DNA from: Flectonema sp. DT1601
Lineage: Eukaryota > Euglenozoa > Diplonemea > Diplonemida > Diplonemidae
Assembly: GCA_964019425.1 (NCBI GenBank)
Contig: OZ025845.1
Span: 434,001-498,000, forward strand
DNA length: 64,000 nt
Direction of reading: 5' to 3'
The translations under genes were made by a program, and so were the position numbers. Shown here piece after piece: positions 22,257-56,646 of this stretch; position 1 is the first letter of the stretch, and each line of letters starts with the position of its first letter. The notes under the pieces were generated by a model. The model did no database searches, was not told where the DNA came from, and saw only the letters and a list, made by a program, of their open reading frames with translations.

Positions 22257-22288
<32 letters not shown>

Positions 22289-24794: not shown

Positions 24795-24827
<33 letters not shown>

Positions 24828-24895
24828 AATAAACAATGTTATCATTGTTTTTTTTTCTATCGATCAACTATGTCGATTAATTTCTATTTTCCGTC
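21245..24895 (+). repeat. Hairpin satellite array (sense), end of unit E0
   Basis: Sense-oriented A/B dimers leading into the 3' block at 24896, with type A monomers only in the last few repeats. This is the 3' region of a unit (E0) whose RT gene is not present. Low-complexity A/T runs explain the short F-, K- or I-rich frames here. Confidence 0.88.
24199..24285 (-). repeat. Single inverted satellite monomer
   Basis: One type B monomer (AATAGAAATTAGTCAACAAA on plus) lies backwards within the sense array, bounded on both sides by CAATGTTATCATT hairpin halves. It has lost one hairpin arm. Confidence 0.7.
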
Positions 24896-25083
24896 CTGAT
24901 CGAGACGCTAAACTGATTGTTTCCTTTTTTTAAATAATAAATAAAAAAAAAAAAAAAAAAAAAAAAGAGCATCTCCCTGCTATCCCTCATATCCCCACAA
25001 TAATATTATACCTTTTCATTTTCTCTTTCCTTTTCTGGTCTTTTTTTTTCTTTTTTTTCCTTTTTCATACAACGTTTTTTATT

Positions 25084-25115
<32 letters not shown>

Positions 25116-25151
25116 CATGTTTGATTATTTCCTCTTCATTTTTTTTTTTTC

Positions 25152-25184
<33 letters not shown>

Positions 25185-25377
25185 TCTCTGCCTCTCTCTT
25201 AATTCTGTTCGTTTCTTTGAAACGAAAATTCATTTGAATATTATTCCTTGGTCAGCAACCATCATTGTCGCCCTTTGGGCCTGTTAAAAAAAATAAAAAT
25301 AAAAAGAAAGTTTACATCGGGAATAGGGCAGGAGCCAAAAGCTCCCAGTCCGTTACTTCCCACTTTATCGAAATTCA
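24896..25377 (+). repeat. 3' block of unit E0
   Basis: Complete sense block ending CACTTTATCGAAATTCA, immediately followed by the 5' leader of E1 (GCTTTTTGTGGAGC). The A/T tract at 25086-25100 has expanded into (TA)n. Confidence 0.85.
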
Positions 25378-25651
25378 GCTTTTTGTGGAGCTATCCACTC
25401 TGCGGTCTTTTTAGGCCCCTCTATCTCCTTTGCTTTATAAGACCCAATGTTTCTTCTCATCCAATTGCTTTTCTCAAGTTGCCTCTTCGGCATTCATTTG
25501 CCAACCACATTATTTATCAAAATATATATTATAAACAAGTAGTTACTCCGATTTTTCTGTTTTAGAGCGTAGCTCGTTTTCCTTTAAACAGTATTTACCA
25601 AAAAAAAACTCTAGGGTTAGCTGCCCGAAATCAAAAAAAAAAAGGAATAGT
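25378..25651 (+). other. E1 5' leader, first part
   Basis: Matches the leaders of E2 and E3 (56215 and 62776, running downwards). A perfect hairpin GTGGA-GCTA-TCCAC (25385-25398) lies within 10 bases of the 5' junction. The rest includes CTCTAGGGTTAGCTGCCCG near 25610. The leader resumes after the piggyBac remnant at 27403 and runs to the ORF. No promoter motif is recognised. Confidence 0.65.
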
Positions 25652-27402
25652 TTAACCCTTACACCACCGGAGCTGATATATCAGTCTGAAAAAAAAATTT
25701 TTTTTTGCTAAGTGAAAATTTTGCATTTCTGAGTACAACGATTTCACGGGAGAGGTATTATTGAGATGTCTTTTATGTTCCTTACGTGTTGCGCCGCAAT
25801 AGTTTTTATTAAATGGTAAATTTTCCATTTGCTAAAGCTGGCCAAAATCAACTTGGGAAATATGTCGGTCCACAGTTCTGATGAGGATGCAACAGTATTT
25901 GTTAATCCATCGTCGGTGTGCTCCGATTCGTCACTTGACGAAGTATCTGACTCCAAATGGGGAGGGGAGGTAACAAGGGTTACCAAGAATAAAAACGCGT
26001 TTCCAAGAAACGTTAAAGATTAGAGTTGCAGGCAAGTCGGAGCTGCAGGTTTTTGAGTTTTTCTTCGGATAGTCAGTTTTCCAGCTGATGAAGAAAAACT
26101 CTGAGGTCTATGCCTCACAGAGGGGAAGGAAATTTAAAACCAGTACGCAGGAGCGAAGGGCCTTTGTTGGCACAACACTACTGACGCGCCTCCCAATAAA
26201 ATCTAACCTAGGGGATTCCTGGGGTTTGAATGACATGCTGTTGACCCCCCCTGTTGTTCTTTCCGCAAGTGTTTTCACGTAATCGCTTTGCCGAAATACT
26301 GAGGAACTTACACTTCTCTGCGATATTACCTGCTCCCGAGCATGAGGATCCGAAGTGGAGACGTGTATTTTGAATTCCTTTATCCTGATGCGACGTGGGC
26401 ATGGTGGAATTTGGACGGATAGTAGTGAATCTGGCTGGAGAAGCAAGAGATTCTTATCCTTCAAATTGGCTTTGTTTTGGGCAGCTTAGGTACATTTAAA
26501 CGTACCAGAGCGGCACCAACACTATTAATAACACCATCAGTACCGCCTTCTCCACAATCAGTATCAATCCCTGATCGCCTCAAGCCAGCTTTGGGACACT
26601 ACCCCGGAAAGATGGAAAAGGCTCGTCAGTGTGCAGTTCGCGCAAAGCGCGCACAATCACTAGATTACTGTGAGCGATGCAACCAAGCGCTTTGTGCTTA
26701 CCCATATTTCAAAAGGTATCACATTCTCCAAAACTACAAAATTCCTTGTGATGTTCCTAAACCGCCAACTTCCCAAAAATCCAGTATGCCAGGCTGGTGG
26801 GGTAAAGAGGTGGAAGTTTATAGATCCAGCCCAACACGGTCTGATCTAAGTAGCTGCACTGTTACTAATGAAGTTCCATGATCTGGGATCGATGTTATTT
26901 GTATTTTTCGAGCTTATCAACCCCGATGGTAATCCTCCTGTGTGTCTGAACCTGCTGTGCCATGATGCGGGTTGTTTGTGTATTTTCCGCGACCACAGAG
27001 GGCTTTTACAAGCTCAAAAAACAGGGAAAAAATCTGATTTTTCGATTTAATATCGGCCGTGATTTGGCATTCTCTTTACTTGGGCTCCCTCTGACATGAT
27101 GTTGCGCAGAAACATCATCCCTTTCAAAATACGGGAAGGGAATAACATGCAGCTGCTATGAATGGAAACCGTTGAGTACGTTATTGCGACACTGCCGACT
27201 TTGTTAGTTCTGCTGAATGTGCAACAACGCACCAAGGTACGCACCGTTAGGTGTGTGGGTGACAGGTGCTATTGACCCGTAGGAGTAGTTGTGTCCGGTT
27301 TGGTACATAGGTTTTCTGGGGGGGTACCTTTTCTCTTTTTGAAAAAACAGTAAAATTTTGGACCCGTTGTTTTGGGGGTTCTTACGGTGGTGTAAGGGTT
27401 AA
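25652..27402 (+). mobile_element. piggyBac-type element in the 5' leader
   Basis: 1751 bp including both TTAA sites, with inverted ends TTAACCCTTACACCACCG. The same leader in E2 (near 55945) and E3 (near 62508) has a single TTAA at this point (TTAGTTTAAAAAAA), which proves a precise TTAA insertion after E1 separated from them. The interior carries a decayed piggyBac transposase and otherwise unrecognised sequence (26882-27395). Confidence 0.92.
25861..26881 (+). pseudogene. piggyBac transposase, internally deleted
   Basis: Three family landmarks appear in order. An acidic N-terminus starts at the ATG at 25861 (MSVHSSDEDATVF, then SDSSLDEVSDS). A segment at 26120-26370 (TQERRAFVG...LPI...LGDSWG, then RFAEILRNLHF in another frame) matches the start of the DDE_Tnp_1_7 domain. 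A C-terminal cysteine-rich finger lies at 26605-26740 (CERCNQALCAYPYFKRYH). The central catalytic Asp region is essentially gone, since only about 100 bp separates the second and third landmarks, and stops and frame changes occur. The element is therefore non-autonomous. Confidence 0.85.
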
Positions 27403-27570
27403 AAAAAAAGATCTTAACTCATCGATATTGTTTCTGAGCCATTCTCTTTTCTATTTTTTTTTTTTTTTTTTATTATTGCTACTTCACAACAAAAAAAAAA
27501 AGAAACACCGGGCCGGCGGTGTCATAAAGATACTGGCAACCATCTCTCAGCCAACCCAGCCCCCGAGGCT
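27403..27570 (+). other. E1 5' leader, second part
   Basis: Continuation of the leader: poly(T) 27453-27470, an A-run, then GC-richer sequence (GGGCCGGCGGTG) up to the ORF. The RT frame is open upstream to 27418 but contains no ATG, so any upstream coding extension would use a non-AUG start or a spliced exon. Confidence 0.6.
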
Positions 27571-30500
27571 TTGCAAGAGGCTATTTCGAGATCGGCTCTG
27601 GATGGGGATAAAACTTTAGTAGCCAAATGTCCTTTATGTTTTGAGACATACCTCAAAGGTCCAGTTGCGCATTTTAGACGTAACTGTAAGTTTAGTAAGG
27701 AATTTAAGGACTATAAGTCACGTTTTCCCCCATCTACCCACTCCCAAGTTAAAGATTGTTACCACTTACCTTGTCCAGATTGTGGTAAGCTTTTCAAAAG
27801 TATCGCTACGAGAGCGAAACACTGTGTTAACGGTACATGTAAAGGTACACCTCTGTCTCCCCTCACAGGGAATAATTCAGACCTGGAACCTCCCTTTGTA
27901 GGAGAATCTGTAGATTTTAAAACTTCACAAACAGCTTTCGTTCCTTATAACTCTACAACACCCACTTTTACCCCGTTACACCCGTCTCGTCTCAAATTCC
28001 GATCTTTTGGAACTGAATGGAAGGACATCGACGTTTCTGCTGCAGAAAAACTTCAAACTTTCTCCGTCGAAACAGAAAACTCTTCAAAACCTGCCGACCA
28101 ACTTGATAAACTACTCAAAACGGTTTATCAAATATGTAGCGGTTTCTTTGAAGAAACAAAGCGGAATTTACCCCGCAAACAGAAATCAAGGGAAGAGGTC
28201 ATCCTCGACCAAGAAAAACTTGAATGTCGTCTGGAAATGAAGCAGCTAAGACAGGAGCTCCGCAAATCTGGGCCTTCTATAGAGAACGCTGTCAAATGGA
28301 AAGAGGCAAGAACGAGAATGAAAAGGATTTTCCGAATGTATCGGAATTTAGAAAAGAAAAATTTATTCAAAAAATTACAAGATAAATTTCGTCAAAATCC
28401 GTTTACTGCCATAAAAGAAGAACTCCAAAAAGAAGATCCTCAACCCCCCTCCCTTGATATTCCAGAGGAAAAAATAATTGAACATTTTAAAAACAATTAT
28501 TGTGACAATGAAAAAAAAAAAACTGATTTCACCCATCCCTCTTTTTTACCTAAGTCTGACTACAAGACAATGGATGATATCCAGTTCCCGAGCTTCGAAC
28601 AGTTTGGTATTCTCTTATCAAAGAAAAAAAACAAATGTGCCCCTGGTCCCAATTGCATACCTTATGTTGTATGGAAAAAGGTCCCAACTTTTATGGAAGC
28701 ACTTTACAAGGTATTAAAGAGAATTTTCGAACTCAAGGCCTATCCGGATAGTTGGGGCTTAGCATTTGTAACAATGCTCCCAAAGCCCAACTCCGATGGG
28801 AAAGACATCTCGAAAACGAGACCGATAGCTGTGGGCAACTGCGACGGGAAAATTTTTAATACGGTTATTCAGGAAGCCGTCGCAAACCACACTCTTTCTA
28901 AATTTAATTTTCAAAAAGGCTTTAGGAAAGGTGTCTCTGGGTGTATCGAACATGCCACGATCACCTCAGAGATTTTTAAAGAAGTGAAAGCTCTCCGGAA
29001 AAACCTAACAATTGTCTGGGTGGATTTGGCAGATGCTTTCGGCTCAGTCAAACATCAATTAATTTTCTTTGCTTTAAAATATTTCGGAATTCACGAAAGA
29101 ATAATCGGTTTCTATAAAAGGTATTATTCCTCCATGCGCGTCCAAATCAGAGTTGGAGAAGGCCTGACGCCCACTATCCCTTTTGAAGTTGGTGTCTTTC
29201 AAGGCTGCGTTTCCTCCCCAACCCTTTTTAATTTGGTATTCCAACTACTGCTCTTTTCCTTAGCAGTTCATCAACAGGAAGCCTACGAGTTTAACAATAA
29301 ATCCCTCCAACTATTAGTTGCAGCTTTTGCTGATGATTTACAACTTACCACGTCATCAAAGGCGGGGGCAAAATTGCTAATCAAGTCGCTCGAACAGTTT
29401 CTTTCCTGGTCTCGTGGTATGAAAGCGAAACCCCAGAAATGCATTGCCCACAGCTTTGTACAAGGGAAACCAGCTAACCCGGACCTGAAGATTAACAATG
29501 TTCCGATTACGAATCTCCAGGAAGCTGGAGAGTTCAAATACCTCGGGCGTTGGTTTGAGCCGAACGCCAAAGAACAGAAACTGCGAGAGCGCCTGACCAC
29601 TTTTACCAGGAATTTTTTAAAAAAAGTCGACGCCATGCCACTATATGGGTCTCAGAAGGCTTGGTCTGCCCAACACTTGTTATTGTCAAGGTTAACATGG
29701 AGTTTAATGATCCATGACTTATCTCTCCCTTTTGCCAAAAAATTGGACAAAATTATTAAACCTTTTTTGAAGAAATGGTGGGGATTTGTCCGCTCTGCGA
29801 ACACAGTCATCCTTTTTACCGGTTCAAAGAACACTGTTGGTCTCAGACACAAAAGAGTTGAGACGCTATATAAACAAGCGCAATCAATTAAACTAGACAT
29901 CCTCAGATCCTCACAGGACTCTGACATGCACGGTGTCTACAATGTTATTATGGAGAAATCGTCCAATTGGTCGAAAAAGTTTTCAGCTTCTGCTGAGTGG
30001 GAGCGCCTTATTAAGTTTTTTTCTTACCGTTCTCTTGCGAAGCAATCAGCTGGTCTTGGTCACCGATTGCGCGATCTACGTACTACTCGCCCCGATCTCC
30101 TTAAGCGTTTTGAAGTGGAAGCCACAGATGAACTACTGAACTCTTTGAATAAATTACAAGCCCAAGGACAGTGGAAGGAGTGGTCTAAATGTATGATAAA
30201 CGACTTCACCTGGAATAAGGTACTTAGGGAGGGAAATCCTGCCTATATCTCATTTCAACTGAAAGCGGTTACAAACACCCTCCCCTCACAAGATAATTTA
30301 AAGAGGTGGAACATCACCAATGTGGACCAAAATTGTGTTTTGTGTGGCAAAGTGAATCCTACCCTCAGGCATGTCTTAACAGGCTGTCCTGTCTCTTTAA
30401 CACAAGGGAGGTTCACGTGGCGTCACGACAGCGTTCTAAAACGCATTGTTATCTTCTTGGAAGAGTTGATAATAAAAGCCAACAAAAGAAAGGAAAACCT

Positions 30501-32694
30501 CCCGCCTCCCTCTCAAACTTTTTTAAAAACAGGGGAAAATAAACCCCTAGAAAGAATTTCTAAAGAGACAGGCGAACTCTCACTAGCGAATGATTGGGTC
30601 ATCCTCGACGATGTCGGTGATAACCGCCTAATTGTTCCCCTTGAAGTGTGCCATGTCTCGTCCTCTCTAAGACCAGACATTTTTATTTATTCTTTTTTTG
30701 CGAAAAGAGCACTGATTCTGGAGCTGACGTGTCCAAATGAAGATCGTTTCGAAACCTCTCATGTCTTAAAGGAAAAGAAATACCTAAAGCTAAGAGACTC
30801 GATCATCGCTAATGGCTTCGACTGTAACATTTTTACTATTGAAGTTGGCGTACGAGGAAACATCTGCATGGACCAGCTGAACATCTGGACACGTCACATC
30901 GGTTCACCTTTAGCACCAACAAAAGCTTTATTTTGTGAATGCACCAGAATCGCCAGACAGTGCTCATATGTTCTGTTCCAGACGAGGAACCTCCCCACGT
31001 GGCATTCAAGACCACTAATGCGCAGCATTAAAGAAGAACCTGCCACCGCAAGTTTTATAAAAGATGGTAAAGAAATCTTCCCTATGGAAGAAGTCAAAAT
31101 CCACAAAGTAACAAAACTGAAAACGATCGAAAAGCTCACCATTGAAAGATCGTGGCTTGAGAAATGTTTTATCTGGCAAACTTGTTACGCATCGGCTCTT
31201 TCTATTCTACTCATTGCCAATGGTTCTTCTTCCTCCCCGGCCCCTTCTTTTTTGTTAGATGAGGATGAGCTCACTGGACTCTCCTTGTCATTCTCTTCTA
31301 TTTCTTCCATCTCTCTCCAGAATTCCCCACCTGAACTCATGTCAACGGGATCGCAAACACTTCCTGCTGATTTCGCTATAGTGATAAGAAGTCAATCTGA
31401 CATGGGTTCCCAAACCCCCTTGTACAATAAAAAAGAAGGAAGATTAAGGCTGAAACTTTCCTTGAAATGCCAGATTTTAGAAAACGAACTAGAACAAATG
31501 AAAGAACGAATGTTTTATGTTCTATTTTTATTTTACTTTAATGCGATGTCAGCCTCCCTTGAGAATGACAAGCAGCTACTGAATGGATTGTCTATTGAGA
31601 ACAAAGCATCCAAACAACGGGCCGCCGAGAGTGTATCTCACAGCCCACTCCCTTTAAATCTATCCGCACCCCCATCTGTCTTTAACGTAGAAACGGAACA
31701 GAAAAAACGTGAACTATTGGAAAAAGAGAATCAACACCTGATCGCTGAATGTGATTTAGTGAAAAGTTCTCTTCTCTCATTAGTTCAAAGAACTAACTCT
31801 CTGGAGGAAAAAAGGACGAGCGAGCTGGCGCGACAATCACAAAGAGCGGACCACGCTGAAATGTTTTATTTCAACTTACAACAAAGGTTCATTCTATTAA
31901 ACAATGAATTAGAATCTAAGTGTAGGGATGAAACTGGAACAAAAATTCAACTCTATTTGTCTCAACAAGAGGTCGCAACATTGCGTGCTGGCCCTCAACT
32001 GTCCCATTTTTCCCAACAATTTTCCCCAACACCCCCTTTTTTATTCGAATCAACGTCCACGGTAAAGAATTATCGACTCCCTCTCATCGCAACAACCTAT
32101 TACTCCTGGACTCCCAAACCCCGTCTTTCCTTTTTTTTTAAACCTCATTCTCCATTGATCACGTTCCCTTCTGAACTGTCTCAAAGTAGACTACTGGTAT
32201 CGTCTTCTGCTCAAACGGAACAAGAAAAAGACAGTGCGGCGACCTCATCGACGGAAGATTCACCTATTGCGAGGCAATGGTCCGAAGGTAGACTCGATTT
32301 ACTGGACAACTACTGTCAAGCGGTAAGTGACTCTCTCCAGACAAATGAGAAAGTGGCGCTGCTCTCGGAAAAACTAGTGGAAGAGCAACGTCGATGCTCC
32401 GAGTTGAGCTATCAACAGAAGACTATCCATAAAGAACAACTGGATCATTCCATGTTGTTGATGGAGATGGCCAGTGAGCTCTCTGAGCAGCTCTATTTGG
32501 CAAAAGACCAAAACAGAGCTCTCAAATTTCAGTTACAAACATGGGCAAATGGTTCTAACCCACCCGAAAAGGAAGCGCAAGAAGAGAATGAGACCCCAAA
32601 GCGTCCGAGGGAGCGCCTATCACAAAAAAAGCGAACTCCACCCTCAACGAATCCTCATGATCGCAGAAGAATCTTTTTAGATGACGATTGCTAA
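27571..32694 (+). CDS. RT-endonuclease polyprotein with coiled-coil tail
   Basis: An intact 1707-codon frame (first codon TTG, stop TAA). Order: C2HC finger C20-C23-H34-C39; second finger C68-C71-H84-C90; basic helical linker (190-300); reverse transcriptase about 340-680 with APGPNCIP (357), RPIAVGN (417), motif A VDLADAF (D485), motif B FQGCVSSP (543) and catalytic FADD (586-589); thumb/linker; CCHC knuckle C922-C925-H934-C939; restriction-like endonuclease with RPD (1034-1036), ELT (E1051) and KEKKY (1067-1071). This set makes a non-LTR retrotransposon enzyme that nicks DNA and reverse-transcribes its own RNA at the nick. Residues 1100-1707 lie beyond the usual end of such proteins: helical segments about 1290-1345, 1375-1475 and 1570-1660 with coiled-coil composition, a hydrophobic FYVLFLFYF patch at 1315 and a basic end (RPRERLSQKKRTP). 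No ATG precedes the fingers; the first in-frame Met is residue 223, so initiation is unusual. Domain calls are by eye. Confidence 0.93.
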   Translation: MQEAISRSALDGDKTLVAKCPLCFETYLKGPVAHFRRNCKFSKEFKDYKSRFPPSTHSQVKDCYHLPCPDCGKLFKSIATRAKHCVNGTCKGTPLSPLTGNNSDLEPPFVGESVDFKTSQTAFVPYNSTTPTFTPLHPSRLKFRSFGTEWKDIDVSAAEKLQTFSVETENSSKPADQLDKLLKTVYQICSGFFEETKRNLPRKQKSREEVILDQEKLECRLEMKQLRQELRKSGPSIENAVKWKEARTRMKRIFRMYRNLEKKNLFKKLQDKFRQNPFTAIKEELQKEDPQPPSLDIPEEKIIEHFKNNYCDNEKKKTDFTHPSFLPKSDYKTMDDIQFPSFEQFGILLSKKKNKCAPGPNCIPYVVWKKVPTFMEALYKVLKRIFELKAYPDSWGLAFVTMLPKPNSDGKDISKTRPIAVGNCDGKIFNTVIQEAVANHTLSKFNFQKGFRKGVSGCIEHATITSEIFKEVKALRKNLTIVWVDLADAFGSVKHQLIFFALKYFGIHERIIGFYKRYYSSMRVQIRVGEGLTPTIPFEVGVFQGCVSSPTLFNLVFQLLLFSLAVHQQEAYEFNNKSLQLLVAAFADDLQLTTSSKAGAKLLIKSLEQFLSWSRGMKAKPQKCIAHSFVQGKPANPDLKINNVPITNLQEAGEFKYLGRWFEPNAKEQKLRERLTTFTRNFLKKVDAMPLYGSQKAWSAQHLLLSRLTWSLMIHDLSLPFAKKLDKIIKPFLKKWWGFVRSANTVILFTGSKNTVGLRHKRVETLYKQAQSIKLDILRSSQDSDMHGVYNVIMEKSSNWSKKFSASAEWERLIKFFSYRSLAKQSAGLGHRLRDLRTTRPDLLKRFEVEATDELLNSLNKLQAQGQWKEWSKCMINDFTWNKVLREGNPAYISFQLKAVTNTLPSQDNLKRWNITNVDQNCVLCGKVNPTLRHVLTGCPVSLTQGRFTWRHDSVLKRIVIFLEELIIKANKRKENLPPPSQTFLKTGENKPLERISKETGELSLANDWVILDDVGDNRLIVPLEVCHVSSSLRPDIFIYSFFAKRALILELTCPNEDRFETSHVLKEKKYLKLRDSIIANGFDCNIFTIEVGVRGNICMDQLNIWTRHIGSPLAPTKALFCECTRIARQCSYVLFQTRNLPTWHSRPLMRSIKEEPATASFIKDGKEIFPMEEVKIHKVTKLKTIEKLTIERSWLEKCFIWQTCYASALSILLIANGSSSSPAPSFLLDEDELTGLSLSFSSISSISLQNSPPELMSTGSQTLPADFAIVIRSQSDMGSQTPLYNKKEGRLRLKLSLKCQILENELEQMKERMFYVLFLFYFNAMSASLENDKQLLNGLSIENKASKQRAAESVSHSPLPLNLSAPPSVFNVETEQKKRELLEKENQHLIAECDLVKSSLLSLVQRTNSLEEKRTSELARQSQRADHAEMFYFNLQQRFILLNNELESKCRDETGTKIQLYLSQQEVATLRAGPQLSHFSQQFSPTPPFLFESTSTVKNYRLPLIATTYYSWTPKPRLSFFFKPHSPLITFPSELSQSRLLVSSSAQTEQEKDSAATSSTEDSPIARQWSEGRLDLLDNYCQAVSDSLQTNEKVALLSEKLVEEQRRCSELSYQQKTIHKEQLDHSMLLMEMASELSEQLYLAKDQNRALKFQLQTWANGSNPPEKEAQEENETPKRPRERLSQKKRTPPSTNPHDRRRIFLDDDC

Positions 32695-33110
32695 GTTCTA
32701 GTTTCTATTAGTATTAAATTATTTGTATTATTTTGTCGATATGTTTATGTCTGTCCGATCATAACGTCAATCAGATTAATTGTTAATTGTAATTGGTTTG
32801 AGCGCTTATCAAAAAAAAAAAAAAAGCGAACTCCAACCTCAACGAACTTTCATGATCGCAGAAGAATCTTTTTAGATGACGATTGCTAAGTTCTAGTTTC
32901 TATTAGTATTTATTTATTTGTATTATTTTGTCGATATGTTTATGTCCGTCAGATCATAACGTTAATCAGATTAATTGTCAACTGTTAATTGTAAATGGTC
33001 TAAACCCCAATCCAAGTTCCCAAGGCTTGGCATAGATTTGAGTGACGCCTTACTGGCCTCCTCATCCTCTATGAGTGGTGAGGGGGCCAGCAATGGTTTT
33101 TTTTTTTTTC
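32695..33110 (+). other. E1 3'UTR, tandemly duplicated
   Basis: The last 60 or so bases of the ORF plus UTR (from about 32631) are repeated at 32826-33000 after an A-run, a duplication of about 195 bp also present at 12362-13080. A stretch conserved in both subfamilies follows (33000-33098). It can fold as CCAAG...CTTGG and CTCAT-CCTCT-ATGAG, a candidate RNA structure. Confidence 0.75.
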
Positions 33111-33174
33111 TCTTATTTCTTTTTTTCTTTTTCTTTTACTCTAATATGAAATATTTTTGAACAAAATGTGATTA

Positions 33175-33206
<32 letters not shown>

Positions 33207-33329
33207 TGTAAATGAATAATAAAAAAAAAAAAAAAAAAAACATGCCTTGGGAATACAACCAAAGCCCCAATTAATCGGTCCTTTCTTTTTTCCTTCTTGT
33301 CAAGTGATCGCTCCACTCGTCGATCACCA
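33111..33329 (+). other. Low-complexity linker
   Basis: T- and A-rich tracts, then CATGCCTTGGGAATACAACC and a GATCGCTCCACTCGTCGATC inverted repeat. Also present in E2 at 45010-45230. No coding sequence recognised. Confidence 0.6.
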
Positions 33330-34010
33330 AAACCGATTGTATTTATATCTGTTCTTTTCTCAACGATCGGCTATTACCGATCATTTTTTTTAAAATAATT
33401 GTTTTCTTCTTCTCGACGATCAGATCCAATTGATCGACCTTTTTTTTTTTTTCCTTTATTCCTTCCATCCCTCCCGCTCCCCTTATTTAATAAAAACAAG
33501 ATCAGCTCAGCTTGATCGTTAAACTTTTTTTTATTTATTTATTTATTTTTTCTTTTATTTAAACTGATTGTATTTATATCTGGTTATTTTTCTCAACGAT
33601 CGGCTATGCCGATCGACCTTTAAAATAATTGTCTTCTTCTTCTGGACGACCAGATCCAATTGATCGACCTTTTCTTTTTTTTTCCTTTATTCCTTCCATC
33701 CCTCCCGCTCCCCTTATTTAATAAAAACAAGATCAGCTCAGCTTGATCGTTAAACTTTTTTTATTTATTTATTTATTTTTTTTTTATTTAAACTGATTGT
33801 ATTTATATCTGGTTATTTTTCTCAACGATCGGCTATGCCGATCGACCTTTAAAATAATTGTCTTCTTCTTCTCGACGACCAGATCCAATTGATCGACCTT
33901 TTCTTTTTTTTTCCTTTATTCCTTCCATCCCTCCCGCTCCCCTTATTTTAATAAAAACAAGATCAGCTCAGCTTGATCGTTATTTATTTATTTATTTTTT
34001 TTTTTTTTTT
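33330..34010 (+). repeat. Second satellite, about 240-bp units
   Basis: Three units starting near 33330, 33560 and 33790. Each has GATTGTATTTATATCTG, the near-perfect palindrome CGATCGGCTATGCCGATCG, TCCAATTGATCGACC, a CCATCCCTCCCGCTCCCC segment and GATCAGCTCAGCTTGATC, followed by (ATTT)n. The first unit has ATTACC in the palindrome centre. Its sequence is distinct from the main satellite but it has the same design of GATC-rich palindromes. Confidence 0.85.
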
Positions 34011-34256
34011 GTTGGTCCTAGTCAAGACCTTAAACTGACTAATCGGTCTTAACTTAAACTAAGTGAATGAACCCTTTCCGTTTTCCTTTTCCCTTTATTA
34101 CTCTCTATCTGGTCTGTTATGTCATAAATCTCATTTATTTTATCATTCATTTTAATTTTCACTGTTTCCCATCTACATTTTATTTTCAAATAGTTCCGGT
34201 CTGCCTTTAATTTTAAATAAAACTGATCATGTTAACTCAATATTTTTTCTTATGTG
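34011..34256 (+). other. Linker homologous to the short element
   Basis: Contains GGTCCTAGTCAAGACCTTAA (34014-34033), then CACTGTTTCCCATCTAC and ATAGTTCCGGTCTG. Recognisably related sequence occupies the interior of the 1.5-kb element (53090-53200, opposite strand), linking that element to this family. Confidence 0.65.
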
Positions 34257-34372
34257 CAAGAGATACCAACACGCAAGAGATACCAACGCACATACGAGAT
34301 ACCAGCACTTCCGAGATACCGACACAAAAGAGATACCAAGACACTTAAGATACCAGCAAGGACAGTGAGAGG
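34257..34372 (+). repeat. 17-bp minisatellite
   Basis: Six units of 17-19 bp keyed by GAGATACC (GGTATCTC on minus). Other copies: 20287-20384, 44250-44302, 47358-47455 and 59008-59105. E2 has only three units where E1 and E3 have six. Confidence 0.85.
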
Positions 34373-35139
34373 TAGAATGAACTCTCCTCCTTGTGTCCGA
34401 TCCTGATTATTTTTTGTTGAATTGGTAGTGTTACCTCAGTTTGCTACTCTCGTATCTGTGTTGTGTTAACTCATGTAAGTGATCTTAACTCCTGTTAAAT
34501 AAAAAAAAATTTCAAAAAAAAAGAAATTAAAAAAGAAGAATTTTCAAATGAAGTTATATCAACCCCTGCCACCCATTATGATCAATCCCGCTTGTTTTTT
34601 TTTTTTTTTTTCTTCTTTCTTTTCTTCAAATATAAAAAAAAAATTAAAAAATATAAAAGATGAAACAATGTTATCATTGTTTTTTTTATCGATCGACTAT
34701 GTCGATTACTTCCAGTTTTCCGTCCTGGTCAAGACGCTAAACTGATTGTTTTTTTTTTTTTTAAAAAATTAATAAAAAGAATATAAAAAAAAAAAAAAAA
34801 AGAATAAACAATGTTATCATTGTTTTTTTTTATCGTTCGACTTTGTCGACTAATTTCTATTTTCCGTTTCTTTTCTTTAAAGAATAAATAAAAAGAATTT
34901 AAAATAAAAAAAAAGAATAAACAATGTTATCATTGTTTTTTTATCGATCGACTATGTCGATCACTTTCTATTTTCCGTCCTGGTCAAGACGCTAAACTGA
35001 TTGTTTTCTTTTTCAAAATTAATAAAAAAGAATATAAAAAAAAAAAAAAAAAAGAATAAACAATGTTATCATTGTTTTTTTTATCGATCGACTATGTCGA
35101 TCACTTTCTATTTTCCGTCCTGGTCAAGACGCTAAACTG

Positions 35140-35392
35140 AGGTGGTGCCGGTGTCCCGTCGAATCGAAACGGCCCGGTACAACCCCTACGCAGAAGTAAT
35201 CTGCACCACAGTGTAGATTCTTCTAAGTGATCTCAGACTTGTTAACTGCATGTTCATTCAATTAAGTATACTTCTCTTTCCCAGGTGCATACAGTATAGG
35301 AAGGCTAATTACTGGCCTGGGTACCTGGCCCAGGACTTGGTGGATTTCCTCAGAACCCAAAATATCCCCAATGCTGACAATTATATAGGAGA
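35140..35392 (+). other. Captured unique segment with exon-like end
   Basis: GGTGGTGCCGGTGTCCCGTC to ACAATTATATAG, unlike anything else in the window except its duplicate at 37214-37466. A pyrimidine tract and CCCAG precede an open stretch (YRKANYWPGYLAQDLVDFLR), suggesting a splice acceptor and a captured exon. The protein is not recognised. Confidence 0.45.
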
Positions 35393-37213
35393 TACCAAGA
35401 CACTTAAGATACCAGCAAGGACAGTGAGAGGTAGAATGAACTCTCCTCCTTGTGTCCGATCCTGATTATTTTTTGTTGAATTGGTAGTGTTACCTCAGTT
35501 TGCTACTCTCGTATCTGTGTTGTGTTAACTCATGTAAGTGATCTTAACTCCTGTTAAATAAAAAAAAATTTCAAAAAAAAAGAAATTAAAAAAGAAGAAT
35601 TTTCAAATGAAGTTATATCAACCCCTGCCACCCATTATGATCAATTCCGCTTGTTTTTTTTTTTTTTTTTCTTCTTTCTTTTCTTCAAATATAAAAAAAA
35701 AATTAAAAAATATAAAAGATGAAACAATGTTATCATTGTTTTTTTTATCGATCGACTATGTCGATTACTTCCAGTTTTCCGTCCTGGTCAAGACGCTAAA
35801 CTGATTGTTTTTTTTTTTTTTAAAAAATTAATAAAAAGAATATAAAAAAAAAAAAAAAAAGAATAAACAATGTTATCATTGTTTTTTTTTATCGTTCGAC
35901 TTTGTCGACTAATTTCTATTTTCCGTTTCTTTTCTTTAAAGAATAAATAAAAAGAATTTAAAATAAAAAAAAAGAATAAACAATGTTATCATTGTTTTTT
36001 TATCGATCGACTATGTCGATTACTTTCTATTTTCCGTCCTGGTCAAGACGCTAAACTGATTGTTTTTTTTTTCAAATTAATAAAAAAGAATATAAAAAAA
36101 AAAAAAAAAAAAAAGAATAAACAATGTTATCATTGTTTTTTTTTATTGTTCGACTTTGTTGACTAATTTCTATTTTCCGTTTTTTTTCTTTAAAGAATAA
36201 ATAAAAAGAATTTAAAATAAAAAAAAGAATAAACAATGTTATCACTGTTTTTTTTATCGATCGACTATGTCGATCACTTTCTATTTTCTGTCCTGGTCAA
36301 GACGCTAAACTGATTGTTTTTTTTTTCAAAATTAATAAAAAAGAATATAAAAAAAAAAAAAAAAAAAAGAATAAACAATGTTATCATTGTTTTTTTTTAT
36401 CGTTCGACTTTGTCGACTAATTTCTATTTTCCGTTTCTTTTCTTTAAAAAATAAATAAAAAGAATTTAAAATAAAAAAAAAGAATAAACAATGTTATCAT
36501 TGTTTTTTTTATCGATCGACTATGTCGATCACTTTCTATTTTCCGTCCTGGTCAAGACGCTAAACTGATTGTTTTTTTTTTCAAAATTAATAAAAAAGAA
36601 TATAAAAAAAAAAAAAAAAAAGAATAAACAATGTTATCATTGTTTTTTTTTTATCGTTCGACTTTGTCGACTAATTTCTATTTTCCGTTTCTTTTCTTTA
36701 AAGAATAAATAAAAAGAATTTAAAATAAAAAAAAAGAATAAACAATGTTATCATTGTTTTTTTATCGATCGACTATGTCGATCACTTTCTATTTTCCGTC
36801 CTGGTCAAGACGCTAAACTGATTGTTTTTTTTTTCAAAATTAATAAAAAAGAATATAAAAAAAAAAAAAAAAAAGAATAAACAATGTTATCATTGTTTTT
36901 TTTTTATCGTTCGACTTTGTCGACTAATTTCTATTTTCCGTTTCTTTTCTTTAAAGAATAAATAAAAAGAATTTAAAATAAAAAAAAAGAATAAACAATG
37001 TTATCATTGTTTTTTTATCGATCGACTATGTCGATCACTTTCTATTTTCCGTCCTGGTCAAGACGCTAAACTGATTGTTTTCTTTTTCAAAATTAATAAA
37101 AAAGAATATAAAAAAAAAAAAAAAAAAGAATAAACAATGTTATCATTGTTTTTTTTATCGATCGACTATGTCGATCACTTTCTATTTTCCGTCCTGGTCA
37201 AGACGCTAAACTG
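35140..37213 (+). repeat. 2,074-bp tandem duplication, first copy
   Basis: Repeated from 37214 to about 39200 with almost no difference: a 253-bp unique segment, the tail, and about 1.5 kb of array. A shorter third version lacking the unique segment occupies 34340-35139. The near-identity indicates a very recent duplication, or an assembly repeat. Confidence 0.85.
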
Positions 37214-39668
37214 AGGTGGTGCCGGTGTCCCGTCGAATCGAAACGGCCCGGTACAACCCCTACGCAGAAGTAATCTGCACCACAGTGTAGATTCTTCTAA
37301 GTGATCTCAGACTTGTTAACTGCATGTTCATTCAATTAAGTATACTTCTCTTTCCCAGGTGCATACAGTATAGGAAGGCTAATTACTGGCCTGGGTACCT
37401 GGCCCAGGACTTGGTGGATTTCCTCAGAACCCAAAATATCCCCAATGCTGACAATTATATAGGAGATACCAAGACACTTAAGATACCAGCAAGGACAGTG
37501 AGAGGTAGAATGAACTCTCCTCCTTGTGTCCGATCCTGATTATTTTTTGTTGAATTGGTAGTGTTACCTCAGTTTGCTACTCTCGTAATCTGTGTTGTGT
37601 TAACTCATGTAAGTGATCTTAACTCCTGTTAAATAAAAAAAAATTTCAAAAAAAAAGAAATTAAAAAAGAAGAATTTTCAAATGAAGTTATATCAACCCC
37701 TGCCACCCATTATGATCAATTCCGCTTGTTTTTTTTTTTTTTTTTCTTCTTTCTTTTCTTCAAATATAAAAAAAAAATTAAAAAATATAAAAGATGAAAC
37801 AATGTTATCATTGTTTTTTTTATCGATCGACTATGTCGATTACTTCCAGTTTTCCGTCCTGGTCAAGACGCTAAACTGATTGTTTTTTTTTTTTTTAAAA
37901 AATTAATAAAAAGAATATAAAAAAAAAAAAAAAAAGAATAAACAATGTTATCATTGTTTTTTTTTATCGTTCGACTTTGTCGACTAATTTCTATTTTCCG
38001 TTTCTTTTCTTTAAAGAATAAATAAAAAGAATTTAAAATAAAAAAAAAGAATAAACAATGTTATCATTGTTTTTTTATCGATCGACTATGTCGATTACTT
38101 TCTATTTTCCGTCCTGGTCAAGACGCTAAACTGATTGTTTTTTTTTTCAAATTAATAAAAAAGAATATAAAAAAAAAAAAAAAAAAAAAGAATAAACAAT
38201 GTTATCATTGTTTTTTTTTATTGTTCGACTTTGTTGACTAATTTCTATTTTCCGTTTTTTTTCTTTAAAGAATAAATAAAAAGAATTTAAAATAAAAAAA
38301 AGAATAAACAATGTTATCACTGTTTTTTTTATCGATCGACTATGTCGATCACTTTCTATTTTCTGTCCTGGTCAAGACGCTAAACTGATTGTTTTTTTTT
38401 TCAAAATTAATAAAAAAGAATATAAAAAAAAAAAAAAAAAAAAGAATAAACAATGTTATCATTGTTTTTTTTTATCGTTCGACTTTGTCGACTAATTTCT
38501 ATTTTCCGTTTCTTTTCTTTAAAAAATAAATAAAAAGAATTTAAAATAAAAAAAAAGAATAAACAATGTTATCATTGTTTTTTTTATCGATCGACTATGT
38601 CGATCACTTTCTATTTTCCGTCCTGGTCAAGACGCTAAACTGATTGTTTTTTTTTTCAAAATTAATAAAAAAGAATATAAAAAAAAAAAAAAAAAAGAAT
38701 AAACAATGTTATCATTGTTTTTTTTTTATCGTTCGACTTTGTCGACTAATTTCTATTTTCCGTTTCTTTTCTTTAAAGAATAAATAAAAAGAATTTAAAA
38801 TAAAAAAAAAGAATAAACAATGTTATCATTGTTTTTTTATCGATCGACTATGTCGATCACTTTCTATTTTCCGTCCTGGTCAAGACGCTAAACTGATTGT
38901 TTTTTTTTTCAAAATTAATAAAAAAGAATATAAAAAAAAAAAAAAAAAAGAATAAACAATGTTATCATTGTTTTTTTTTTATCGTTCGACTTTGTCGACT
39001 AATTTCTATTTTCCGTTTCTTTTCTTTAAAGAATAAATAAAAAGAATTTAAAATAAAAAAAAAGAATAAACAATGTTATCATTGTTTTTTTATCGATCGA
39101 CTATGTCGATCACTTTCTATTTTCCGTCCTGGTCAAGACGCTAAACTGATTGTTTTCTTTTTCAAAATTAATAAAAAAGAATATAAAAAAAAAAAAAAAA
39201 AAAAAAAAGAATAAACAATGTTATCATTGTTTTTTTATCGATCGACTATGTCGATTACTTTCTATTTTCCGTCCTGGTCAAGACGCTAAACTGATTGTTT
39301 TTTTTTTCAAAATTAATAAAAAAGAATAAAAAAAAAAAAAAAAAAAAAAAAGAATAAACAATGTTATCATTGTTTTTTTTATTGTTCGACTTTGTTGACT
39401 AATTTCTATTTTCCGTTTTTTTTTCTTTAAAAAATAAATAAAAAGAATTTAAAATACAAAAAAAGAATAAACAATGTTATCATTGTTTTTTTATCGATCG
39501 ACTATGTCGATCACTTTCTATTTTCCGTCCTGGTCAAGACGCTAAACTGATTGTTTTTTTTTCTTCAAAATTAATAAAAAAGAATATAAAAAAATACAAA
39601 AAAAAGAATAAACAATGTTATCATTGTTTTTTTTATCGTTCGACTTTGTCGACTAATTTCTATTTTCC

Positions 39669-39699
<31 letters not shown>

Positions 39700-41804
39700 C
39701 TCTTTAAAAAATAAATAAAAAATAATTTAAAATAAAAAAAAGAATAAACAATGTTATCATTGTTTTTTTTTATCGATCGACTATGTCGATCACTTTCTAT
39801 TTTCCGTCCTGGTCAAGACGCTAAACTGATTGTTTTTTTTTTCAATAATTAATAAAAAAGAATATTAAAAAAAATACAAAAAAAAGAATAAACAATGTTA
39901 TCATTGTTTTTTTTTTTTATCGAACGACTATGTCGATTACTTTCTATTTTCCGTCCTGGTCAAGACGCTAAACTGATTGTTTTTTTTTTTTTTCAAAATA
40001 AAAAAAAAATATTAAAAATAAAAAATAAAAAAAAAGAATAAACAATGTTATCATTGTTTTTTTTTATCGTTCGACTTTATTGACTAATTTCTATTTTCCG
40101 TTTTTTTTTCTTTAAAAAATAAATAAAAAGAATTTAAAAAAAAAAAAAAAAAAAAAGAATAAACAATGTTATCATTGTTTTTTTTATCGATCGACTATGT
40201 CGATTACTTTCTATTTTCCGTCCTGGTCAAGACGCTAAACTGATTGTTTTTTTTCAAAATTAATAAAAAAGAATATAAAAAAATACAAAAAAAAGAATAA
40301 ACAATGTTATCATTGTTTTTTTTTTATCGTTCGACTTTGTCGACTAATTTCTATTTTCCGTTTTTTTTTCTTTAAAAAATAAATAAAAAGAATTTAAAAT
40401 AAAAAAAAAAAGAATAAACAATGTTATCATTGTTTTTTTTATCGATCGACTATGTCGATTACTTTCTATTTTCCGTCCTGGTCAAGACGCTAAACTGATT
40501 GTTTTTTTTTCAAAATTAATAAAAAAGAATATAAAAAAAATAAAAAAAAAAAGAATAAACAATGTTATCATTGTTTTTTTTATCGATCGACTATGTCGAT
40601 TACTTTCTATTTTCCGTCCTGGTCAAGACGCTAAACTGATTGTTTTTTTTTTCAAAATTAAAAAAAAAAAATATAAAAAAATACAAAAAAAAGAATAAAC
40701 AATGTTATCATTGTTTTTTTTTATCGTTCGACTTTGTCGACTAATTTCTATTTTCCGTTTTTTTCTTTAAAAAATAAATAAAAAGAATTTAAAATAAAAA
40801 AAAAAAGAATAAACAATGTTATCATTGTTTTTTTTATCGATCGACTATGTCGATTACTTTCTATTTTCCGTCCTGGTCAAGACGCTAGACTGATTGTTTT
40901 TTTTTCAAAATTAATAAAAAAGAATATAAAAAAAATAAAAAAAAAAAGAATAAACAATGTTATCATTGTTTTTTTTTATCGTTCGACTTTGTTGACTAAT
41001 TTCTATTTTCCATTTTTTTTTTTTTTAAAAATAAATAAAAAGAATTAAAATAAAAAAAAAAAAAAAAGAATAAACAATGTTATCATTGTTTTTTTTATCG
41101 ATCGACTATGTCGATTACTTTCTATTTTCCGTCCTGGTCAAGACGCTAAACTGATTGTTTTTTTTTTCAAAATTAATAAAAAAAAATATAAAAAAATACA
41201 AAAAAAAGAATAAACAATGTTATCATTGTTTTTTTTTATCGTTCGACTTTGTCGACTAATTTCTATTTTCCGTTTTTTTTCTTTAAAAAATAAATAAAAA
41301 GAATTTAAAATAAAAAAAAAAAGAATAAACAATGTTATCATTGTTTTTTTTATCGATCGACTATGTCGATTACTTTCTATTTTCCGTCCTGGTCAAGACG
41401 CTAAACTGATTGTTTTTTTTTCAAAATAAAAAAAAGAATAAACAATGTTATCATTGTTTTTTTTTATCGTTCGACTTTGTCGACTAATTTCTATTTTCCG
41501 TTTTTTTTCTTTAAAAAATAAATAAAAAGAATTTAAAATAAAAAAAAAAAGAATAAACAATGTTATCATTGTTTTTTTTATCGATCGACTATGTCGATTA
41601 CTTTCTATTTTCCGTCCTGGTCAGGACGCTAAACTGATTGTTTTTTCTTTAAAAATAAATAAAAAGAATAAAAAAAAAAAAAAAAAAGGAATAAACAATG
41701 TTATCATTGTTTTTTTTTTATCGATCGACTATGTCGATTACTTACTATTTTCCGTCCTGGTCAAGACGCTAAACTGATTGTTTTTTCTTTAAAATAATTA
41801 AAAA

Positions 41805-41837
<33 letters not shown>

Positions 41838-41905
41838 AATAAACAATGTTATCATTGTTTTTTTTTCTATCGATCAACTATGTCGATTAATTTCTATTTT
41901 CCGTC

Positions 41906-42092
41906 CTGATCGAGACGCTAAACTGATTGTTTCCTTTTTTTAAATAATAAATAAAAAAAAAAAAAAAAAAAAAAAAGAGCATCTCCCTGCTATCCCTCAT
42001 ATCCCCACAATAATATTATACCTTTTCATTTTCTCTTTCCTTTTCTGGTCTTTTTTTTTCTTTTTTTTCCTTTTTCATACAACGTTTTTTAT

Positions 42093-42132
<40 letters not shown>

Positions 42133-42168
42133 CATGTTTGATTATTTCCTCTTCATTTTTTTTTTTTC

Positions 42169-42201
<33 letters not shown>

Positions 42202-42393
42202 TCTCTGCCTCTCTCTTAATTCTGTTCGTTTCTTTGAAACGAAAATTCATTTGAATATTATTCCTTGGTCAGCAACCATCATTGTCGCCCTTTGGGCCTG
42301 TTAAAAAAAATAAAAATAAAAAGAAAGTTTACATCGGGAATAGGGCAGGAGCCAAAAGCTCCCAGTCCGTTACTTCCCACTTTATCGAAATTC
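41906..42393 (+). repeat. E1 3' block
   Basis: Sense block ending CACTTTATCGAAATTCA, with an expanded (TA)n at 42098-42116. It meets the inverted E2 end in a palindrome. Confidence 0.85.
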
Positions 42394-42409
42394 AATTTAA
42401 AAAATTGAA

Positions 42410-44110
42410 TTTCGAAATCTTTTTTTTTAAATTCTTTTTATTTATTTTTTAAAGAAAAAAAAACGGAAAATAGAAATTAGTCGACAATGTCGAACGATAA
42501 AAAAACAATGATAACATTGTTTATTCTTTTTTTTTTATTTTTTTTATATTTTTTTTTTAATTAATTTTGAAAAAAAAAACAATCAGTTTAGCGTCTTGAC
42601 CAGGACGGAAAATAGAAAGCGATCGACATAGTCGATCGATAAGAAAACAATGATAACATTGTTTATTCTTTTTTTTTATTTTAAATTCTTTTTATTTATT
42701 TTTTAAAGAAGAAAAGCGGAAAATAGAAATTAGTCGACAAAGTCGAACGATAAAAAAAAACAATGATAACATTGTTTATTCTTTTTTTTTATTTTTTTTA
42801 TATTTTTTTTTTAATTAATTTTGAAAAAAAAAACAATCAGTTTAGCGTCTTGACCAGGACGGAAAATAGAAAGCGATCGACATAGTCGATCGATAAAAAA
42901 AACAATGATAACATTGTTTATTCTTTTTTTTTATTTTAAATTCTTTTTATTTATTTTTTAAAGAAAAAAAAACGGAAAATAGAAATTAGTCGACAAAGTC
43001 GAACTATAAAAAAAAACAATGATAACATTGTTTATTCTTTTTTTTATTTTTTTTTTTATTCTTTTTTATTAACTTTGAAAAAAAAAAAACAATCAGTTTA
43101 GCGTCTTGACCAGGACGGAAAATAGAAAGTAATCGACATAGTCGATCGATAAAAAAAAAACAATGATAACATTGTTTATTCTTTTTTTTTATTTTAAATT
43201 CTTTTTATTTATTTTTTAAAGAAAAAAAAAACGGAAAATAGAAATTAGTCGACAAAGTCGAACGATAAAAAAAAACAATGATAACATTGTTTATTCTTTT
43301 TTTTTTTTTTTTATTTCTTTTTATTTATTAAAAAAAAAAAACAATCAGTTTAGCGTCTTGACCAGGACGGAAAATAGAAAGTGATCGACATAGTCGATCG
43401 ATAAAAAAAAACAATGATAACATTGTTTATTCTTTTTTTTTATTTTAAATTCTTTTTATTTATTTTTTAAAGAAAAAAAAACGGAAAATAGAAATTAGTC
43501 GACAAAGTCGAACGATAAAAAAAAAACAATGATAACATTGTTTATTCTTTTTTTTATTTTTTTTTTTATTCTTTTCTATTAATTTTGAAAAAAAAAAAAA
43601 AAACAATCAGTTTAGCGTCTTGACCAGGACGGAAAATAGAAAGTAATCGACATAGTCGATCGATAAAAAAAAAACAATGATAACATTGTTTATTCTTTAT
43701 TTTTATTTTAAATTCTTTTTATTTATTTTTTAAAGAAAAAAAAACGGAAAATAGAAATTAGTCGACAAAGTCGAACGATAAAAAAAAACAATGATAACAT
43801 TGTTTATTCTTTTTTTTATTTTTTTTTTATTTTTTTTTTATTCTTTTTTATTAACTTTGAAAAAAAAAAAAACAATCAGTTTAGCGTCTTGACCAGGACG
43901 GAAAATAGAAAGTAATCGACATAGTCGATCGATAAAAAAAACAATGATAACATTGTTTATTCTTTTTTTTTATTTTAAATTCTTTTTATTTATTTTTTAA
44001 AGAAAAAAAAACTGAAAATAGAAATTAGTCGACAAAGTCGAACGATAAAAAAAACAATGATAACATTGTTTATTCTTTTTTTTTATTTTAAATTCTTTTT
44101 ATTTATTTTT
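42410..44110 (-). repeat. E2 hairpin satellite array
   Basis: Antisense A/B dimers, regular, about 255-bp period, ending at the tail (ACAGGAGTTAAGATCACT). Confidence 0.88.
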
Positions 44111-44559
44111 TAACAGGAGTTAAGATCACTTACATGAGTTAACACAACACAGGTACGAGAGTCGCAAACTGAGGTAACACTACCAATTCAACAAAAAATA
44201 ATCAGGATCGGACACAAGGAGGAGAGTTCATTCTACCTCTCATTGTCCTTGCTGGTATCTTAAGTGTCTTGGTATCTCTTGCGTGTTGGTATCTCTTGCA
44301 CATAAAAAAAAAAAATATTGAGTTAACATGATCAGTTTTATTTAACATTAAAGACAGAACGGAACTATTTGAAAATAAAATGTAGATGGGAAACAGTGAA
44401 AATTAAAATGAATGATAAAATTAAATGAGATTTATGACATAACAGACCAGATAGAGAGTAATAAAGGGAAAAGGAAAACGGGAAGGGTTCATTCACTTAG
44501 TTAAAGTTAAGACCGATTAGTCAGTTTAAGGTCTTGACTAGGACCAACAAAAAAAAAAA
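44111..44559 (-). other. E2 tail, minisatellite and linker
   Basis: The tail of the E1/E3 subtype (CTTACATGAGTTAACACAAC), three minisatellite units (44250-44302), then the linker with the TCAGTTTAAGGTCTTGACTA motif (44520-44539). No gene. Confidence 0.7.
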
Positions 44560-45009
44560 AAATAAATAAATAAATAACGATCAAGCTGAGCTGATCTTGT
44601 TTTTATTAAATTAAGGGGAGCGGGAGGGATGGGAGGAATAAAGGAAAAAAAAAGAAAAGGTCGATCAATTGGATCTGATCGTCGAGAAGAAGAAGACAAT
44701 TATTTTAAAGGTCGATCGGCATAGCCGATCGTTGAGAAAAAATAACCAGATATAAATACAATCAGTTTAAATTTAAAAAAAAAAAAAAAAAAAGATTAAC
44801 GATCAAGCTGAGCTGATCTTGTTTTTATTAAAATAAGGGGAGCGGGAGGGATGGAAAGAATTAAGGAAAAAAAAAAAAAAGAAAAAAAAAGTCGATCAAT
44901 TGGATCTGATCGTCGAGAAGAAGAAAACAATTATTTTAAAAAAAATGATCGGTATAGCCGATCGTTGAGAAAAGAACAGATATAAATACAATCGGTTTTG
45001 GTGATCGAC
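44560..45009 (-). repeat. Second satellite in E2
   Basis: Two inverted-orientation units of the 240-bp satellite with the palindrome CGATCGGCATAGCCGATCG and its variant GATCGGTATAGCCGATCG. One unit fewer than in E1. Confidence 0.82.
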
Positions 45010-45485
45010 GAGTGGAGCGATCACTTGACAAGAAGGAAAAAAGAAAGGACCGATTAATTGGGGCTTTGGTTGTATTCCCAAGGCATGTTTTTTTTTTTTT
45101 TTTTTATTATTCATTTACATTATTTTTTTTTTTTTTTTTTTAAATTAATAATCACATTTTGTTCAAAAATATTTAATATTAGAGTAAAAGAAAAAGAAAA
45201 CAAAGAGATAAGAGAAAAAAAAAAAAAAACCATTGCTGGCCCCCTCACCACTCATAGAGGATGAGGAGGCCAGTAAGGCGTCACTCAAATCTATGCCAAG
45301 CCTTGGGAACTTGGATTGGGGTTTAGACCATTTATAATTAACAATTAACAATTAACCTGATTAACGTTATGATCTGACGGACATAAACATATCGATAAAA
45401 TAATACAAACAAAAACGAACAATAAATAATAAATAAGCTAAAAAACTAAATAAACAAAGTGATGTGAAAGTAAGGAAAAAGAGAA
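45010..45485 (-). other. E2 3'UTR and linker
   Basis: Contains the conserved block GCCAAGCCTTGG and CTCATAGAGGATGAGG shared with E1, but the part nearest the stop codon differs from E1 and lacks the 195-bp duplication. Confidence 0.7.

Positions 45486-48736: not shown

Positions 48737-48773
<37 letters not shown>

Positions 48774-49548: not shown

Positions 49549-49579
<31 letters not shown>

Positions 49580-49971: not shown

Positions 49972-50004
<33 letters not shown>

Positions 50005-50257: not shown

Positions 50258-50295
<38 letters not shown>

Positions 50296-56398: not shown

Positions 56399-56429
<31 letters not shown>

Positions 56430-56610: not shown

Positions 56611-56646
<36 letters not shown>

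Follow-up and report, generated by a model that had tools for sequence, protein, structure and literature searches.

A 64,000-nucleotide stretch of the genome of the diplonemid Flectonema sp. DT1601 (bases 434001-498000 of the 722-kb contig C66, in an assembly of 89.5 Mb and 92 contigs; hereafter, the window) consists of nested copies of one element, mixed with other repeats. This element is probably a retrotransposon of the type without long terminal repeats (non-LTR) that employs a restriction-like endonuclease (RLE). Its RNA would extend from inside or upstream of one module of hairpin satellite and terminal block to the 3' end of the next such module, and full-length copies would thus carry satellite and block on either side. 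The layout is LTR-like, the mechanism is not. A preliminary description of the same DNA had proposed that kilobases of satellite travel with a non-LTR element delimited at 25378-42393; its observation is partly confirmed and its interpretation is supported by the genomic copies analysed here.

The element has the order [hairpin satellite, block], 5' leader, open reading frame (ORF) for reverse transcriptase (RT) and endonuclease, 195-bp repeat, 229-bp minisatellite, GAGATACC segment and, again, [hairpin satellite, block]. In the copy denoted E1 (plus strand throughout), hairpin satellite at 21229-24966 (with a short break at 24204-24277 and an outer limit that is not fixed) precedes the 5' copy of the block (24980-25377), which is directly followed by the leader (F5; 25378-25640). 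The RT-RLE ORF (27418-32694; 1758 codons from stop to stop) is followed by 1.9 copies of the 195-bp repeat (32624-32991), which begins within the ORF end, by three copies of the 229-bp minisatellite (33330-34010), the hairpin core of which is related to that of the main satellite, and by the segment with GAGATACC repeats, denoted POST (34010-34520). The main hairpin satellite (34629-41976) consists of units of ~110 and 145 bp with a higher-order period of 255 bp and is broken at 35140-35579 and 37214-37654 by a repeated XX+POST piece; it leads into the 3' block (41990-42394), which has a uniform 3' terminus, ...TTTATCGAAATTC(A). The 5' module (24419-25377) and the 3' module (41428-42394) of E1 show 99.07% identity across the final 967 columns of their alignment. 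The constant order of the RT ORF, second satellite, minisatellite, hairpin satellite and block that had been noted previously is borne out: the part order of E1 recurs in a second element, E2, in a third, E3 (with a deletion and inversion), and in units on contigs C30, C80 and C1, some of which contain other inserts.

Two further points qualify the preliminary description. The leader and the ORF are present from 25378 onward, but 25652-27400 is a foreign insert, missing from the C30 copy, that is not the element's own; it spans 1.75 kb, has inverted ends CCCTTACACCACCG and TTAA flanks, contains no ORF of 200 aa and is piggyBac-like. The satellite-rich 3' region of ~9.7 kb is real in E1 but is inflated by two extra segments of ~1.06 and 2.07 kb (between 34330 and 37463), without which it would measure ~6.6 kb, similar to the C30 units. 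From the stop codon to the block end, the two C30 units span 6.0 and 6.7 kb and two C1 units span 5.0 and 5.3 kb, each of the latter including a 1.04-kb non-satellite stretch.

The evidence of mobility comes, first of all, from the 3' ends. The islands that we read total 224 kb: the window plus 10 kb of flank to either side, and parts of C1, C30, C80 and C6. Block ends were scored in them after excluding alignments that stopped before position 175 of the 190-position query. Each of the 33 ends scored in this way lies no more than 5 nt from one and the same point. The leader follows in 10 of these 33 cases, and among the other 23 there are 20 different flanks (satellite, element parts and other repeats). 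Thus, no sequence-specific target, such as the spliced leader or U2, is apparent, unlike the case of NeSL and Utopia. By contrast with the 3' ends, the 5' limits vary, falling at block position 69 in a C30 copy, at POST position 250 in a solo copy within E2, and in the satellite elsewhere, so that the preliminary claim of solo copies with the same 3' end and varying 5' limits stands. The solo copy within the RT gene of E2 (47359-50690, plus strand; POST-satellite-block) begins within the GAGATACC segment and extends to the block end.

Three insertions could be matched to clean empty sites. The solo insertion in E2 is flanked by a 3-bp target duplication (TTA); a 5'-truncated, block-only copy on C30, located in an RT gene copy, is associated with a 5-bp deletion according to the cut made by the script, or with one of 2 bp if the shared bases are assigned to the flank; and a 27-kb tandem on C30, inserted in another repeat, is associated with a 3-bp deletion. 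The satellite is included in the moved unit in two of these three cases, the third being the block alone. The uniform 3' end, 5' truncation and small duplications or deletions are, as far as genomic copies can tell, the DNA signature of target-primed retrotransposition (TPRT) with loose ends. Hence, at the DNA level, the proposed joint movement of array and block as parts of a non-LTR element is supported: the copies demonstrate a mobile unit that terminates, on the 3' side, in satellite and block, that has the same module before the leader and that was evidently inserted by a 3'-anchored process.

The linkage between satellite and block bears on a different explanation, namely, that the satellite is independent, was captured by (or captured) dead elements, and spread by segmental duplication and unequal exchange only. 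Of the 43 satellite runs of at least 250 bp in the islands, 27 enter the block directly and two enter a block shortened at position 205, so that, in islands chosen for the presence of the element, 29 runs join the block and long arrays are not, for the most part, unlinked to it. The remaining 14 runs, among which two internal satellite pieces of E1 are counted, end in other sequence, at the end of another copy, in masked bases or without a clear assignment. These 14 runs, and the repeated segments in C6 and C1 that indicate duplication, are what an independent satellite would be expected to leave. However, such a satellite would not account for the uniform 3' ends with varied flanks, the three clean empty sites or the block-only insertion in an RT gene copy, nor for the satellite units found within 400 bp upstream of 13 of the 15 block starts that were selected by hand from 100 of the 409. 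Furthermore, 100% identity is reached, on many contigs, by the 40 best among 1197 block candidates, which implies recent spread, although the identity of block copies varies between ~85 and 100% across the islands read. Among five C1 arrays that lack an exact block start, two enter a 93% block and three reach none within the stretch fetched. Altogether, we consider an independent satellite very unlikely.

Genome-wide, we counted 800 block 3' termini (allowing up to two mismatches) and, as exact matches, 75 leader tips and 13,309 hairpin satellite cores. The numbers of candidates at first look (1197, 281 and 92 for block, RT and leader, respectively, the best 40 of each being scored) come from queries of unlike length and scoring and are not used as copy numbers. 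With ~17 satellite cores per block terminus and units of 110-145 bp, the satellite amounts, by a rough estimate, to ~1.7 Mb, or ~2% of the assembly.

The 5' end of the element differs from the original delineation, in which the 3' end at the block was correct and position 25378 was taken as the start. The block 3' end directly precedes the leader in all 30 copies read, some of which keep just the last 31-45 bp of the block, and 74 of the 75 exact leader tips in the genome carry the block end ATTCA at the junction. Position 25378 is therefore ruled out as the 5' end of the element, and the module before the leader had been missed. Given that block ends elsewhere adjoin many flanks, RNA starting at the leader would leave leader tips beside non-block DNA. 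The simplest reading is that the block-leader boundary is an internal, inherited junction and that the RNA would start farther upstream. The satellite lies within 13 bp of the pre-leader block in 22 of the 30 copies. In these 22, the satellite-block module thus forms direct repeats at both ends of the element, a departure from the absence of long terminal direct repeats that characterizes RLE non-LTR elements. A self-cleaving ribozyme at the leader was also sought and rejected: Rfam yielded no match at the gathering score in the window and only three weak, unrelated matches (E<=5) in 24960-25660.

The precise block-leader junction, together with the head-to-tail tandems described below, could also arise if each full-length copy inserted right after an existing block, as telomeric elements do, in which case the block would not belong to the 5' end. 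Yet just 10 of the 33 block ends lead into the leader, and the other 23 have 20 different flanks, so that targets are not confined to block ends. Independent events of this kind also predict truncated 5' ends and slippage at the junction, but 74 of the 75 leader tips show the same one; and the C30 tandem has one other repeat on both of its sides. Such self-targeting therefore appears improbable.

Several observations weigh against an RNA that spans from one module to the next, and we gather them here. No satellite was found, within the stretch read, before the (shortened) pre-leader block in seven of the 30 copies, and in one more the satellite is 902 bp away, past an insert. Clean empty sites were obtained for three of the six insertions tried; of the others, one shows an ambiguous 34-bp gap in the minisatellite and two gave no clear outcome. 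The 27-kb insertion on C30 may be a single dimer event or a monomer that expanded later. Joining the satellite flanks of E1 restored the phase, but 96 of 200 random joins were spanned too, 49 of them as strongly; the test does not discriminate against random joins, and the 5' limit of E1 derived from it was dropped. The 14 satellite runs that do not reach a block belong here as well. Finally, the islands were picked for RT or leader copies and are a selected sample.

The favoured reading, in which the RNA runs from module to module, leaves room for recombination between the repeated modules. C30 contains two tandem units (12.3 and 11.5 kb, the ORF of the second being broken), with satellite and block before them, that are 99.86% identical over 7.07 kb; this tandem is bounded on both sides by one other repeat. 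On C1, three leaders are 10.8 and 10.6 kb apart, and two adjacent units are 99.6-99.7% identical, with the 1.04-kb non-satellite stretch at the matching position in the satellite. That unequal exchange between repeated modules changes array length and makes head-to-tail tandems appears well supported by these comparisons; dimeric RNA may also have served as a source of tandems. The repeat in which the C30 tandem is inserted, and which contains CACACTGTAAGCTG, is often found close by in the islands and occurs four times in a row with 1359-bp spacing on C80 (~303,200-307,300).

The copies are clustered. The 93 listed exact termini on contigs C1-C9 fall into 22 islands, compared with 52 expected at random (the minimum of 1000 simulations being 41), and the mean spacing of islands on these nine contigs is ~660 kb. 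The islands on C1-C9 are internal, not at chromosome ends as is the case for HeT-A and TART. Such clustering, along with the AT-rich hairpin satellite, would also fit islands that are centromeres with the satellite as the centromeric repeat. However, C1 has four islands and an 8-bp terminal repeat at both ends, and C12, both ends of which also carry the terminal repeat, has block starts at 724-746 and at 1221-1260 kb. Unless these contigs are misjoined, this is a misfit with one centromere per chromosome, and we rejected the centromeric interpretation, which we deem unlikely, as the principal one.

The 8-bp repeat is of interest on its own. Arrays of this repeat are present at 10 of the 16 contig ends read (C1, C12, C30, C48, C66, C80 and C84), without exception as GGGTTTGC on the plus strand at left ends (four) and as GCAAACCC at right ends (six), and internal arrays are found near the left end of C66. 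The G-rich strand points inward, the reverse of ordinary telomere polarity; these arrays could represent a telomere of an unusual kind or, alternatively, a subterminal satellite with a fixed orientation.

The coding region supports the assignment of the element. Pfam identifies RVT_1 (PF00078, E 4e-26; 28780-29547) and an RT zinc-binding domain (zf-RVT) in the ORF protein, and the best solved structures by sequence are R2 retrotransposon proteins, which score above LINE-1 ORF2. A protein search with residues 150-1250 yielded 16 relatives among 7982 candidates scored; the best seven are 26-31% identical, and the only names provided, in two cases, are "hypothetical protein". A CCHC knuckle and the endonuclease residues RPD..ELT.P..K..Y (30334-30783) are invariant in all six aligned proteins (E1 and five relatives). 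By sequence motifs, the RT, the C-terminal CCHC and the PD-(D/E)xK-type restriction-like endonuclease are all contained in one ORF, which is thus predicted to encode a non-LTR RT of the RLE (R2/NeSL) type with an extra C-terminal region. In the C30 copy, which has the same length as that of E1, the first ATG is at codon 274 (the matching E1 stretch is 27418-28240), although CxxC-type fingers are found upstream of it, at codons 71 and 119. Judging from this arrangement, translation would have to start either in an unusual way or after splicing.

The C-terminal region (31408-32691) distinguishes two subfamilies, represented by one copy each, A (C30) and B (C1). The two copies are ~99.5% identical from the leader to the endonuclease, ~60% identical over the 1.2 kb of the coding C-terminal region, and ~97.5% identical in the first repeats beyond it. 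Over the last 416 aligned codons of this single pair, dN is 0.31 and dS is ~1.5, near saturation, with a ratio of 0.21. This ratio and the confinement of the identity drop indicate that the C-terminal region is kept by selection and is apparently exchanged as a cassette between near-identical elements. Four of the five aligned relatives stop soon past the endonuclease; the fifth (P0005) is longer and contains a UCH-type domain (PF00443) beyond that point. A Pfam scan of the proteins holding the cassette, the only search in which it was used, found no family in it; by eye, it looks coiled-coil-like.

The satellite and the leader fold better than shuffled sequences (z of -3.2 for one satellite unit and -3.0 for its reverse strand, -2.05 for a shorter unit and -2.55 for a leader piece), whereas the minisatellite (-0.4) and block (-1.1) pieces do not clearly do so. 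Hairpin 1 shows almost no variation, and one A-T/G-C swap separates the satellite and minisatellite versions of hairpin 2; this putative covariation is suggestive only.

Taken together, these features can be arranged into a scheme. Transcription would start in the 5' satellite or in the satellite of a neighbouring copy; by analogy with HeT-A, the 5' array would act as the promoter, with the copy itself or its upstream neighbour supplying the start site. The transcript would terminate at the block, and a nick in the target would prime reverse transcription from the 3' end of the block, i.e., TPRT. Unequal exchange between modules would then lengthen or shorten the arrays and yield head-to-tail tandems, the outcome being the spread of the satellite into islands through retrotransposition. 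A more far-reaching hypothesis, which we put forward only tentatively, is that this is an independently evolved LTR-like layout in which hairpin satellites are regulatory terminal repeats, the 5' array being the promoter and the 3' array being reverse-transcribed, with length reset by recombination. The element would then make, distribute and maintain a satellite of ~2% of the genome in heterochromatin-like islands, and the C-terminal cassette would be swapped between lineages.

The rest of the window is occupied largely by the other copies. E2 (42420-56601, minus strand; 5' block at 56214-56601) is interrupted by an insert at 52528-54354 and by the solo copy, and lacks its own 3' block where its satellite meets E1. 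E3 (56214-63950, minus strand), with its internal deletion and inversion, is arranged head-to-tail with E2, the 3' block of E3 being the 5' block of E2 that precedes the E2 leader. Past the 3' end of E1, at 42384-42418, the last bases of the element recur in inverted orientation (TCGAAATTCA ATTTAAAAAA TTGAATTTCGA), resembling snap-back filler at the junction. Other insertions have repeatedly interrupted a (TA)n stretch within the block (1047-1332, 2203-4345 and 62776-63950), which is a possible insertion hotspot.

These findings directly connect the spread of a kilobase-scale satellite with the reverse transcription of a non-LTR element, the copying of which can carry a satellite through the genome. 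Whole arrays belong to what is moved, and together with the block they constitute repeats at the two ends of the element. Two questions become testable, namely, by what means an element that relies on target priming retains its promoter and whether satellites can be a part of a transposon that is under selection.

Among known systems, HeT-A, TART and TAHRE of Drosophila possess an endonuclease of another class, not RLE, and the endonuclease of GilM, GilT and GilD of Giardia is an RLE. According to the portions of the source available, HeT-A, TART and TAHRE are non-LTR elements with an unusually long 3' untranslated region (UTR) and head-to-tail arrays, both the long 3' region and the arrays being common to them and the element described here; their promoter-to-promoter layout has been likened to that of an LTR element, and HeT-A and TAHRE have sense promoters in the long 3'UTR that are able to serve the downstream element (PMC5537684). 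These elements are telomeric and end in poly-A, whereas the element described here has an RLE, resides in internal islands, ends in the block without an A tail and contains satellite arrays in a repeated module. GilM, GilT and GilD also have unusually long 3'UTRs and head-to-tail arrays but sit between subtelomere and telomere, and the cited portion describes no satellite terminal repeats for them; the preliminary statement that 3'UTRs of hundreds of bases are normal for this endonuclease type requires a caveat in view of these elements (PMC5537684).

In the fungal RLE non-LTR elements MoTeR1 and FoTeR, variable tandem repeats are mostly located at the 5' side, the largest array of MoTeR1 being near the 3' end; as far as the cited excerpt goes, they differ from the present element in being telomere-associated and in having far shorter arrays, 3' parts of ~0.34-0.40 kb and no module common to both ends (PMC12857005). 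Utopia/NeSL-type RLE elements encode N-terminal zinc fingers, RT, a zinc finger and RLE in a single ORF, a domain set also found here; those elements, in the account consulted, are mostly target-specific (U2, spliced leader), whereas no common target is seen in the flanks of this one, which additionally has the C-terminal cassette (PMC4640811). Transposons are already known to have seeded satellites, examples being Ogre, an LTR element, and Tetris, a DNA transposon of Drosophila; in Ogre, according to the part of the source at hand, short repeats in the element (3'UTR) expand later elsewhere (PMC7004042 for Ogre). Ogre thus belongs to the LTR class and has short arrays within the element and long ones elsewhere, whereas here kilobase arrays are inside the mobile unit. 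Among the titles and abstract beginnings retrieved from open-access papers, a scope that excludes most subscription papers and bioRxiv, we found no such element described. As far as these sources go, the closest known systems are HeT-A/TART, Giardia GilM/GilT and the 3'UTR satellites of Ogre, and the combination observed here is new.

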